DNA from: Limnobacter litoralis
GTDB lineage: Bacteria; Pseudomonadota; Gammaproteobacteria; Burkholderiales; Burkholderiaceae_B
Length of the DNA: 64,000 nt
Assembly: GCF_030160455.1 (NCBI RefSeq)
Contig: NZ_BSOJ01000012.1
Span: forward strand, 1-64,000
Direction of reading: 5' to 3'
Made by a program: the position numbers and the translations under genes. Below, piece after piece: positions 7,816 to 56,109 of this stretch (position 1 is the first letter of the stretch; each line of letters starts with the position of its first letter). The notes below the pieces were generated by a model. That model worked only from the letters and a program-made list of their open reading frames with translations. It had not been told where the DNA came from and ran no database searches.

Positions 7816-8225
7816 GAAGTGCGTCAGGCAATCGCTGTTTCGGTTTTATCCGGAAGAGAGGAAAGTCTGGACTCCAGGAGCAAAGATGCTGGCTAACGGC
7901 CAGGCGCTATAAGTCTTTACAGACCCAAGGCGACGGAAAGTGCAACAGAAAACAAACCGCCGATGGTTCACCGCAAGGTGAGTACAGGCAAGGGCGAACC
8001 GGTGGTGTAAGAGACCACCGCAGTGTTGGTGACAACGCTGGCTAGGTAAACCCCATCTGGAGCAACATCAAATAGGCACGCCTGCACCCTTTGTTGAGGT
8101 GCACCAGAGCTCCCTGTGCGTGTGGGTAGATGGCTTGAGCGACTCAGTAATGGGTCGCCTAGAGGAATGATTGCCACTGCGGTGTTTCACCAAGGTACAG
8201 AATCCGGCTTATCGACGCGCTTTTC
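7816..8225 (+). ncRNA. rnpB: RNase P RNA, bacterial class A
   Basis: The catalytic RNA that trims tRNA 5' leaders. The conserved core is easily seen: GAGGAAAGTC near 7858, the ACAGAAAACAAACCGCC stretch near 7943, AGGTAAACCCCA near 8045, AAATAGGCA, and CCGGCTTATCG near the 3' end. The closing helix P1 forms between GTGCGTC at 7819-7825 and GACGCGC at 8214-8220, extended by A-T pairs on the outside; this defines the ends to within a few bases. The length of about 410 nt is normal for betaproteobacteria. It lies between the DUF3025 gene and mraZ on the same strand. Short reading frames predicted through it are spurious. Confidence 0.95.
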
Positions 8226-51843: not shown

Positions 51844-51880
51844 TAGTTTCAGACCTCGCACAAAACACAACATATAGTGG
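51834..51880. promoter_or_regulatory. Two NrdR boxes controlling nrdA
   Basis: The site at 51865-51880 matches the 16-bp NrdR consensus (aCaCwAtATaTwGtgt) at about 14 positions. A weaker copy at 51834-51849 matches at about 11 and overlaps the predicted -10 element. The starts are 31 bases apart, three turns of DNA, which is the spacing NrdR tetramers need. NrdR represses ribonucleotide reductase genes when dATP is abundant. Confidence 0.75.
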
Positions 51881-51942: not shown

Positions 51943-54867
51943 ATGCAAACCAGCCATGAATCTGCCGCCATACAGACCAAGGCCCCAGCCTTCGACATCG
52001 ACGGCCAGGCCTCCAGCAAGCAGGCAGACAGCACCTATGCCAATTACAAAATCATTCGCAGAAACGGTGCGGTGGTGGGTTTCGAGCCCAGCAAGATCGC
52101 GATCGCAATGACCAAAGCGTTTCTGGCCGTCAATGGTGGCCAGGGCGCGGCTTCCGCGCGCGTGCGTGAGCTGGTCGAACAACTGACTGCCCAGGTGGTT
52201 TCAGCCCTGGTGCGTCGTCAACCGTCCGGCGGCATCTTCCACATTGAAGACATTCAGGATCAGGTTGAGCTGGCCTTGATGCGTTCAGGCGAAGCCGAAG
52301 TGGCGCGTGCCTACGTGCTTTACCGTGAGCGCCGCGCACAAGAGCGCGCGCAGCAGAAAGTCGAGCAGGCCCAAACGCATGCCTTGAACGTGGTGGACGG
52401 CGATGTAACCCGCCCACTGGATGTGGACAGTCTGAAAAGCCTGATTGAGGCTGCGGCCGTTGGACTGGAAGGCATTGACACCGACCACATTCTGAAAGAG
52501 ACCCTGAAAAACCTGTACGACGGCGTGAAAGTGGCCGAGGTGTACAAGTCAGCCATTCTGGCCTCACGCGCCATGATCGAAAACGAGCCCAGTTACACGC
52601 TGGTGACTTCGCGTCTGTTGTTGCACACCATCCGCCGTGAAATCATTGGTCGGGAAATTGCGCAAGACGAAATGGCGCAGGTGTACCCAGAATATTTCCC
52701 CCAGTTCATCAAGAAGGGCATTGAAGCCGGTCTGCTGGACAACCGCCTGGCCCAGTTCGACATGAAGAAGCTGGGCGCTGCGCTGAACTACAAGCGCGAC
52801 CTGCAATTCGATTATCTGGGCCTGCAAACTCTGTATGACCGCTATTTCCTGCACGTTGATGGCACCCGCATTGAAATGCCTCAGGCTTTCTACATGCGCG
52901 TTGCGATGGGCCTGGCGCTGAACGAAGTGGATCGCGAGGCGCGCGCAATCGAGTTTTACGAAGTGCTGTCTACCTTTGACTTCATGAGCTCTACGCCCAC
53001 ACTGTTCAACAGCGGCACCATTCGTTCTCAACTGTCCTCTTGCTACCTCACCACCATCGGTGACGACCTCGACGACATCTATGAAGGCATCAAGGAAAAC
53101 GCGTTGCTGTCCAAGTACGCAGGCGGCCTGGGCAACGACTGGACACCCGTTCGCGCATTGGGCAGCCACATCAAGGGCACCAACGGCAAATCCCAAGGTG
53201 TTGTGCCTTTCCTGAAAGTGGTAAACGACACAGCCGTGGCTGTGAACCAAGGCGGCAAGCGCAAAGGCGCGGTGTGTGCCTACCTAGAGACTTGGCACCT
53301 GGACATCGAAGAGTTTCTGGAACTGCGCAAGAACACCGGTGACGATCGCCGTCGCACCCACGACATGAACACAGCGAACTGGATTCCCGACCTGTTCATG
53401 AAGCGTGTGATGGAAAATGGCGAATGGACCCTGTTTAGCCCGGCCGACACACCCGATCTGCATGATCTGTACGGCAAGGCTTTTGAAAAGGCCTATGTGG
53501 GCTACGAAGAAAAGGCCGCACGTGGCGAGCTGAAGCTGCATAAAAAAGTGGACGCCAACAAACTGTGGCGCAAAATCCTGTCTATGCTGTTCGAAACAGG
53601 CCACCCCTGGATCACTTTCAAGGACCCTTGCAACATTCGCAGCCCCCAGCAACACGTTGGTGTGGTTCACTCGTCCAACCTGTGTACAGAAATTACACTG
53701 AACACCAGCGCCACTGAAATTGCAGTGTGTAACCTGGGTTCTGTGAACATGACTGCGCACCTGAAAAAGGGCGAGAACGGCGAATACACGCTGGACCATG
53801 ACAAACTGCGCAGCACGGTGCGCGTTGCCATGCGCATGCTCGACAACGTGATTGACATCAACTACTACGCCGTGGGCAAGGCGCGCAATTCAAACCTGCG
53901 TCACCGCCCAGTGGGCATGGGCATGATGGGCTTCCAGGATGCGCTGCACATGATGCGCAAGCCTTACGCCTCTCGCGACGCCGTAGAATTCGCTGACGAA
54001 AGCATGGAAGCCATTTGCTACTACGCTTACGAGGCCTCCTCTGACTTGGCCGCAGAGCGTGGTGTGTACAGCACGTACAAGGGCTCCCTGTGGGACAAGG
54101 GCATTCTGCCGCTGGACAGCATCAAGCTGCTGGAAGAAGAACGTGGCGGTTACCTTGAAGTGGACACTTCGTCCACCATGGACTGGGACAGCCTGCGGGC
54201 CAAAATCAAGGCTCAGGGCATGCGCAACTCCAATTGCGTGGCCATTGCCCCAACCGCGACCATTTCCAACATCATTGGCGTGGCCGCGTCGATTGAGCCC
54301 ACATTCCAGAACCTGTACGTGAAGTCGAACCTCAGCGGCGAGTTCACCATCGTCAACGAACACCTGGTGCGCGACCTGAAGCGCCTGGGCATCTGGGACG
54401 AAGTGATGATTTCTGACCTGAAATACTTCGATGGTTCAGTCATGAAGATCGACCGCATTCCGGAAGACCTGAAGCGTTTGTACGCCACGGCTTTCGAGAT
54501 GGACCCACGCTGGCTGGTTGAAGCCGCCGCGCGTCGCCAAAAGTGGATCGATCAGGCCCAGAGCTTGAACATCTACATGGCGGGTGTGTCGGGCAAACGT
54601 CTGGACGACACCTACAAGCTGGCTTGGACACGCGGTTTGAAAACCACGTACTACCTGCGCACCATTGGTGCAACCCACGCCGAGAAATCCACGCTGAAAG
54701 GTGGTGAATTGAACGCCGTGAACGCCGATGGTGGTGCCTCTGTAGCCTTTACTTCTGCGCCGGCAACGGGCCTTGTGCCCAACCTGCCAGAGCAGGAGGT
54801 GGAGGGCAAGGTGTGTACACTTCGACCCGGCGACGATGGCTTTGAAGAATGCGAGGCCTGCCAGTAA
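51943..54867 (+). CDS. nrdA: Class Ia ribonucleotide reductase, large subunit
   Basis: Reduces ribonucleoside diphosphates to deoxyribonucleotides. It has 974 residues: an N-terminal ATP cone for allosteric dATP/ATP sensing (around residues 35-125), then the ten-stranded barrel. Active-site residues are Cys367 in SSCYLTT, Asn579, Cys581 and Glu583 in NLCTEI, and the C-terminal redox cysteines in ECEAC. This is longer than E. coli NrdA (761), the extra length lying mainly in the N-terminal region. Two ATG codons precede; the one at 51943 has AGGAG eight bases ahead. Confidence 0.95.
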   Translation: MQTSHESAAIQTKAPAFDIDGQASSKQADSTYANYKIIRRNGAVVGFEPSKIAIAMTKAFLAVNGGQGAASARVRELVEQLTAQVVSALVRRQPSGGIFHIEDIQDQVELALMRSGEAEVARAYVLYRERRAQERAQQKVEQAQTHALNVVDGDVTRPLDVDSLKSLIEAAAVGLEGIDTDHILKETLKNLYDGVKVAEVYKSAILASRAMIENEPSYTLVTSRLLLHTIRREIIGREIAQDEMAQVYPEYFPQFIKKGIEAGLLDNRLAQFDMKKLGAALNYKRDLQFDYLGLQTLYDRYFLHVDGTRIEMPQAFYMRVAMGLALNEVDREARAIEFYEVLSTFDFMSSTPTLFNSGTIRSQLSSCYLTTIGDDLDDIYEGIKENALLSKYAGGLGNDWTPVRALGSHIKGTNGKSQGVVPFLKVVNDTAVAVNQGGKRKGAVCAYLETWHLDIEEFLELRKNTGDDRRRTHDMNTANWIPDLFMKRVMENGEWTLFSPADTPDLHDLYGKAFEKAYVGYEEKAARGELKLHKKVDANKLWRKILSMLFETGHPWITFKDPCNIRSPQQHVGVVHSSNLCTEITLNTSATEIAVCNLGSVNMTAHLKKGENGEYTLDHDKLRSTVRVAMRMLDNVIDINYYAVGKARNSNLRHRPVGMGMMGFQDALHMMRKPYASRDAVEFADESMEAICYYAYEASSDLAAERGVYSTYKGSLWDKGILPLDSIKLLEEERGGYLEVDTSSTMDWDSLRAKIKAQGMRNSNCVAIAPTATISNIIGVAASIEPTFQNLYVKSNLSGEFTIVNEHLVRDLKRLGIWDEVMISDLKYFDGSVMKIDRIPEDLKRLYATAFEMDPRWLVEAAARRQKWIDQAQSLNIYMAGVSGKRLDDTYKLAWTRGLKTTYYLRTIGATHAEKSTLKGGELNAVNADGGASVAFTSAPATGLVPNLPEQEVEGKVCTLRPGDDGFEECEACQ

Positions 54868-54901
54868 GGCTTGCCCCTCGGTTAATAATTGAACATAATG
54901 A

Positions 54902-54921
54902 CACTGTGATTTTGTACAGTG
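54902..54921. promoter_or_regulatory. LexA-type SOS box upstream of nrdB
   Basis: CTGT (54904-54907), eight bases, ACAG (54916-54919), extended to a 7-bp inverted repeat ACACTGT / ACAGTGT. This fits the LexA consensus CTGT-N8-ACAG used in beta- and gammaproteobacteria. It lies between nrdA and nrdB, about 20 bases before the nrdB start. A weak promoter may surround it (ATGACA at 54898, TATTAT at 54922), but that would leave a very short leader. Confidence 0.65.
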
Positions 54922-54942
54922 TATTATTTGGGAGTAAAAAGT

Positions 54943-56109
54943 ATGCTGTCTTGGGAAGACGAATTCGAGCAAAGCATGGGAACCACCACCGCTGCTGCAC
55001 CTGCCGCAGTGAAGATGCCAACCATGCCTGAAGTGGCACCCAGCCTGTATCAAAAGGCCGCCCAGCCCGTCGCCAAATCAGAGGGTTCTGCCGCACGTGT
55101 GCGCGCCGCTGACAAGCGCGTCATCAATGGCACCACCGATGTCAACCAGCTGGTGCCATTCAAGTACAAGTGGGCCTGGGAAAAGTACCTCAGCGGTTGT
55201 GCCAACCACTGGATGCCCCAGGAAATCAACATGGACCGCGACATCGCTTTGTGGAAAAGCCAAGATGGCTTGACCGAAGATGAGCGCCTGCTGGTCAAGC
55301 GCAATTTGGGCTTCTTTGTCACGGCCGATTCACTGGCAGCCAACAACATCGTGCTGGGCACCTACCGCCACATCACTGCACCTGAGTGCCGTCAGTTCCT
55401 GTTGCGTCAGGCTTTTGAAGAGGCCATTCACACCCACGCCTACCAGTACATCGTAGAAAGCCTGGGCATTGATGAGGCAGAAACCTTCAACGCTTACAAC
55501 GAAGTGCCCTGCATCAAGGCCAAAGACGAGTTTCTGATTCCTTTCATCGACGTGCTGACCGACCCTGAGTTCAAAACCGGCACCCCTGAAGCAGACCAGA
55601 AGCTGTTGAAGTCATTGATCGCTTTTGCCTGCATCATGGAAGGCATGTTCTTTTATGTGGGCTTTGTCCAGATTCTGGCCCTGGGTCGCCAGAACAAGAT
55701 GATTGGCGCTGCCGAGCAGTTCCAGTACATCCTGCGTGACGAGTCCATGCACTGCAACTTCGGTATCGATCTGATCAACACCGTGAAGCTGGAAAACCCA
55801 CACCTGTGGACCCCAGAGTTCAAGGAAGAGATCAAGGCCATGTTCTACAAAGCCGTTGAGCTTGAACACGCCTACGCCGTGGACACCATGCCACGCGGTG
55901 TGTTGGGTTTGAATTCCGCCCAGTTCATGGAATACATGCGTTTCATCGCCAACCGCCGTTCCAATCAGATTGGTTTGGGCACATTGTTTGAAGGCGCCAG
56001 CAATCCCTTCCCATGGATGAGCGAGATGATGGACCTGAAGAAGGAAACCAACTTCTTCGAGCGTCGTGTGACCGAGTACCAGACTGGTGGTGCGCTGAGC
56101 TGGGATTGA
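54943..56109 (+). CDS. nrdB: Class Ia ribonucleotide reductase, small subunit
   Basis: Provides the tyrosyl radical from a diiron centre for NrdA. It has 388 residues, with a helical ferritin-like fold; metal ligands are seen in [11 protein letters not shown] and [10 protein letters not shown]. The extended N-terminal tail (about 60 residues, alanine- and proline-rich) precedes the core. The ATG at 54943 has a GGGAG site. It follows nrdA by 75 bases that hold an inverted repeat, so it can be transcribed with nrdA and perhaps also on its own. Confidence 0.95.

Follow-up and report, generated by a model that had tools for sequence, protein, structure and literature searches.

The 75-nt spacer between the two ribonucleotide reductase genes of Limnobacter litoralis contains a short dyad, CTGTGATTTTGTACAG, which is very probably a LexA operator set on a promoter serving only nrdB, and which would uncouple nrdB from nrdA. 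We identified this arrangement in a window of 64,000 nucleotides, the whole stretch of DNA analyzed here (Table 1). The box had been proposed in an earlier sequence-only reading of the same DNA, and a LexA box is still the best-supported interpretation of the dyad. The argument draws on the box and its conservation within the genus, on conserved promoter-like hexamers in front of nrdB, on the presence of genes for LexA and NrdR, and on the lack of such a box at nrdA.

Table 1. Position of the genes and of the putative control elements of the nrdA-nrdB region in the window.
Feature	Position	Strand	Basis or remark
NrdR-like box ACACAACATATAGTGG before nrdA	51865..51880	+	14 of 16 to an assumed consensus
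nrdA, large (catalytic) subunit with ATP cone	51943..54867	+	Pfam; only PF02867 match found in the genome
-35-like hexamer TTGCCC, putative nrdB promoter P1	54871..54876	+	First four bases invariant in 12/12
-10-like hexamer CATAAT of P1, 17 nt after the -35	54894..54899	+	Five of six bases invariant in 12/12
Alternative overlapping promoter P2, ATGACA-18-TATTAT, box as spacer	54898..54927	+	Consensus match
Extended 7-bp inverted repeat ACACTGT/ACAGTGT	54901..54922	.	In part of the genus, the three outer pairs are altered or disrupted
Putative LexA box CTGT-N8-ACAG (CTGTGATTTTGTACAG)	54904..54919	.	Exact match; half-sites invariant in 12 Limnobacter spacers
nrdB ribosome-binding site GGGAG	54930..54934	+	Read from the sequence
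nrdB, class I ribonucleotide reductase small (radical) subunit, 388 aa	54943..56109	+	Pfam PF00268 (Ribonuc_red_sm)

The sequence-only reading had described a CTGT-N8-ACAG motif with a 7-bp inverted extension about 20 bases 5' of nrdB, and this description is accurate. The dyad matches the motif exactly, perfect 7-bp arms (54901-54907 and 54916-54922) enclose it, and 23 bases separate its end from the ATG of nrdB (at 54943), whose product begins MLSWEDEF. The number of boxes across the whole window is nothing special (3 exact matches against 1.01 expected, a count reached by 8 of 100 shuffles). The whole genome has 52 exact matches, compared with 38 for the reversed control pattern, and an exact box arises in 121 of 200,000 single-base shuffles of the spacer. 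Since the motif by itself is weak evidence, the case must rest on position and conservation. We also scored the sites with a small matrix trained on the boxes of recA, lexA, uvrD, and ruvA. The nrdB box obtains 14.4 bits, the best value in the window, with an unrelated site at 7907 close behind (14.2). The corresponding values in the same genome are 22.2 for recA, 19.4 for ruvA, 17.1 for uvrD, and 15.3 bits for lexA, all of them in the training set. Among the 50 of the 52 exact sites that were listed and read, the nrdB box ranks tenth, and we regard it as a site of middling strength. Several sites without a known SOS role score higher, including L085 (17.8) and L123 (16.7). Both of these boxes (each at 1501-1516 of its locus) lie outside long frames; the first is at the start of a transposase-like frame, as judged by eye, and the second has no frame start within 250 nt.

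What exceeds chance is conservation in place. Our genus sample consisted of the own genome and 15 further Limnobacter genomes (16 in all), and the nearest named relatives of the NrdB of the window are those of Limnobacter parvus and Limnobacter sp. 130 (83 and 86% identity). We found nrdB in 15 of the 16 genomes, the exception being G009. The earlier reading had proposed to look for the box at the same place in relatives, and it is indeed there: 12 of the 15 genomes with nrdB, the own one included, have an exact box 5' of the gene (11 by pattern, plus G013, which was read directly), beginning 39-44 nt before the nrdB start. When only the genomes where nrdA and nrdB are directly adjacent are considered, the box is present in 12 of 13. 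Some members of the genus live without it, since G008 has adjacent genes and no box (its assembly is 65% complete), while in G007 and G011, whose nrdA and nrdB are separated by inserted genes, the spacer lacks an exact box.

The way in which the box varies is informative as well. There are nine distinct box sequences in the 12 genomes. In these spacers all eight half-site bases are invariant, compared with one of eight in the box centre and 22 of 64 for the remaining columns, counted from the -35 onward and including the centre (Fisher p = 0.0005, with genomes counted without regard to shared ancestry and G008 left out for having no box). Fixed half-sites around a varying centre are what one would expect if the dyad is an operator. 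Owing to the close kinship of the genomes, the conservation represents fewer events than genomes.

The box is placed on promoter-like sequence, as judged by consensus. A pair of hexamers, TTGC-N19-CAYAAT, is conserved, with a constant spacing of 17 nt in all 12 spacers, and the box starts four bases after it. Transcription from this putative promoter P1 would begin at about 54906, inside the box. The box also lies between the ATGACA and TATTAT of the alternative promoter P2, and the span given by the earlier reading (54898-54927) coincides exactly with this second pair. The -10 of P2 varies in relatives, where it reads TATTAG, TATTGG, or TATTGT, and is different in G013.

An inverted repeat in an intergenic spacer may also act as RNA, and a hairpin between nrdA and nrdB could slow, process, or partly terminate the nrdAB transcript. 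We consider this unlikely. The repeat would form a stem of 7 bp closing a loop of 8 nt, with a tail rich in A and T, which a simple scan calls terminator-like on both strands, but no T run directly follows the stem, the regional fold barely beats shuffled sequences (z -0.91; 33 of 200 fold as well), there is no match in Rfam, and a transcript from P1 would miss most of the left arm. We also compared the arms, with identical sequences merged (G004/G005 and G012/G015): among the 10 distinct sequences, 95.7% of the cells are paired (the value for shuffles is 93.5%, and 25 of 500 are as high), and one pair has one two-sided change, from A-U to G-C in G013 (50 of 500 shuffles reach this). However, further standard pair types number 2, for a shuffled mean of 2.0, the four core pairs never vary and are thus uninformative for a stem, and the outer pairs break in 3 of the 12 genomes (G012/G015 and G013) while the core stays. 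Some other Limnobacter spacers seem, by eye, to carry a separate and longer hairpin upstream. Given the fold z, the near absence of compensatory change and the lack of a T-run, we rejected the hairpin or terminator reading, although the repeat may still affect read-through to a small extent.

A LexA operator presupposes LexA, and the earlier reading had named the lack of a lexA gene as an objection to its proposal. The own genome has one LexA match, which aligns over its full length, DNA-binding region included, with structurally characterized LexA repressors (E 7.7e-71), the best of which is presumably that of E. coli. We did not find lexA in G007 (85% complete) or in G008, which both lack the nrdB box and are too incomplete to call a loss. 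The motif CTGT-N8-ACAG is the LexA motif of most beta-proteobacteria, according to the available text of two studies (PMC3323433, PMC6595937). In Limnobacter, an exact box precedes recA in all 14 readable loci (16 were searched; upstream of recA, L166 is masked and L176 partial), and the box before lexA is exact in 12 of 14 cases and has one mismatch in the two others, the own genome and G002. The own genome has further exact boxes before a UvrD-family helicase and before ruvA, which are, like recA, classical SOS targets. The ruvA box (L135, at 1501-1516) is directly 3' of a RuvC-like frame, by eye, which makes it the second box of this genome to lie inside a gene cluster.

The nrdB box thus resembles the LexA (SOS) boxes of beta- and gamma-Proteobacteria, such as those at recA and lexA, in its half-sites, its spacing, and its position across a promoter-like stretch. 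It is unlike the known ones in its target, nrdB alone, inside the nrdA-nrdB pair. A different dyad-binding repressor, for example of a prophage or another LexA-like protein, could occupy the box in place of the chromosomal LexA, which we find, if anything, less probable than the hairpin. In most of the 12 genomes the ACA/TGT flanks do extend the dyad past the LexA core, and where the recA and lexA boxes begin their centre with A, seven of the nine distinct nrdB boxes have G. However, the flanks fail in 3 of the 12 genomes while the core is kept, and the letters that never vary coincide exactly with the LexA half-sites that these genomes have at recA and lexA. Least probable of all is a chance match preserved by general spacer conservation among close relatives: exact matches are common in the genome and most of the 50 sites read fall inside frames of 150 aa or more, but the spacers differ in sequence and in length (75 to 129 nt across the 13 adjacent pairs) while the half-sites are fixed and the centre varies, and the 11-kb loci of two named Limnobacter (taken as G003 and G014, and not counted twice) contain no other exact box.

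The control region of nrdA looks different. There is no LexA box, at one mismatch or less, in up to 300 nt before the nrdA match in any of the 16 Limnobacter genomes, and no exact box at nrdA in the 75 named loci (0/75). Together with the promoter-like stretch before nrdB, this bears out the initial claim that the box stands apart from the nrdA controls. The region before nrdA contains an NrdR-like site, which scores 14-15 of 16 in 15 of the 16 genomes and 12 in G007, relative to a consensus that we took to be acaCwAtATaTwGtgt-like. An nrdR gene is present in the own genome. We also considered an NrdR site at nrdB and rejected it, as the best scores in the 13 nrdA-nrdB spacers were 9-12 of 16 with the same assumed consensus. 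Since the own genome has one large subunit of the PF02867 family, NrdB seems to be without another partner of that family.

Under the LexA reading, RNA polymerase would use TTGCCC-17-CATAAT (54871-54899) and start near 54906, and a LexA dimer bound to 54904-54919 would block this start; transcription running on from nrdA might be impeded too. Upon DNA damage, RecA would trigger the self-cleavage of LexA and the nrdB promoter would open, with nrdA staying under its own NrdR-type control. As nrdB appears to have its own promoter with a LexA box and nrdA has no such box, damage could raise one half of the enzyme without the other. We infer that the outcome of the SOS response would be more NrdB relative to NrdA, for example to replace subunits whose radical has been destroyed. 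On this sequence evidence, a known regulator would have acquired nrdB as a new target, at an unusual site. If LexA holds only the radical subunit, Limnobacter offers a clean experiment of nature on the question whether, during repair, the amount of small subunit sets the limit for ribonucleotide reductase and, if true, the arrangement would show the SOS regulon gaining a target by the placement of a box on an existing internal promoter. In mammals, damage induces an additional supply of the small, radical-bearing subunit alone, in the form of p53R2, which is a separate gene with an unrelated regulator, so that the likeness to nrdB of Limnobacter is one of analogy only. We lean slightly towards a broader view in which Limnobacter has split the control of the enzyme, with NrdR governing the catalytic subunit and LexA the radical one, damage specifically raising the latter. 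This would be a bacterial counterpart of the small-subunit supply of animals, gained by one genus via a LexA box on an older nrdB promoter.

The box seems to be confined to Limnobacter within the genomes searched. A scan of the family with a pattern that depends on the nrdB start gave an exact box at nrdB in 11 of 268 genomes, all of them Limnobacter. In an evenly drawn sample of the order (399 genomes, of which 12 are other genomes of the same family) the only genome with the box was the own one, and the reversed control pattern also had one match. The start required by the pattern is present in only 35 of 80 named loci, hence these scans miss about half of the cases, and within the genus they missed G013. 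A start-independent scan covered the 75 of the 80 named loci in which an nrdA frame is present, and an exact spacer box was found in two of them, both from Limnobacter. Boxes with one mismatch were found in L064, 28 nt before nrdB, and in L039, within the coding region. The -10-like hexamer has a much wider distribution: outside Limnobacter, 21 of 66 loci (L004-L081; 12 of the 78 loci of this set were left out because the match does not start at residue 1) have CATAAT at 23-35 nt 5' of nrdB, against 1.24 expected from shuffles. Records of Polaromonas, Variovorax, and Rhodoferax are among these loci. The recurrence of the hexamer suggests a widespread separate promoter of nrdB. This promoter would be older and more widespread than the box, which Limnobacter would have placed on it.

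We found no report of a LexA box at nrdB in the portions of the open-access literature searched. In the available running text of a survey of the SOS response in Burkholderia and relatives, figures aside, the terms nrd and ribonucle are absent (PMC3323433). The sequence-only reading had considered SOS control of whole nrd operons as known, but the best-studied cases make this doubtful, since the available text of the sources describes the damage induction of nrdAB in E. coli and V. cholerae as LexA-independent. In E. coli, the induction of nrdA by UV is LexA-independent (PMC3009722, PMC2500167), and replication arrest or damage increases nrdAB independently of LexA, through a mechanism called unknown in one of these studies, which also names NrdR among the nrdAB regulators (PMC2500167). 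A motif search lists a separate element upstream of E. coli nrdB (PMC3009722), which means that a separate control of nrdB has been suggested before, without LexA. In V. cholerae, nrdAB is induced by mitomycin C, its start is upstream of nrdA, and LexA fails to bind the nrdAB promoter despite a LexA-like sequence near nrdA (PMC5963079). The V. cholerae case directly cautions against relying on a box by itself; the putative Limnobacter box differs in being exact, conserved, and located on nrdB. Both species have the same gene pair as Limnobacter, and the pair is damage-induced in both, but this induction is reported to be LexA-independent, unlike what we propose for Limnobacter. In Acinetobacter baylyi, which lacks LexA, nrdA increases 7.0 fold and nrdB 5.4 fold, independently of both RecA and UmuDAb, as given in the available text (PMC3978071).

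A few other features of the nrd loci were noticed during the comparison. The spacers of G004, G005, and G006 have a stem like TTGGGCAAGT/ACTTGCCCAA after nrdA, which is without a T-run and overlaps the -35 of the nrdB promoter; by eye, such a stem is not seen in the shorter spacer of the window. G012 encodes a second NrdB (L221/L112, in G012:C149) that is 64% identical and has no nrdA frame in the 2.5 kb before it; as this assembly is listed as 6% contaminated, the second NrdB may be foreign. In G011, about 3.5 kb with small genes separate nrdA from nrdB (L217, G011:C39:137500-141700), one of the genes having a Tlde1 domain (PF10908) and three other frames having no Pfam match. In G007, the spacer is about 1.26 kb long and contains an abortive-infection-like gene, Abi_2 (PF07751; L218, G007:C86:6700-8400). 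The nrdA-nrdB spacer may be an insertion spot in Limnobacter.
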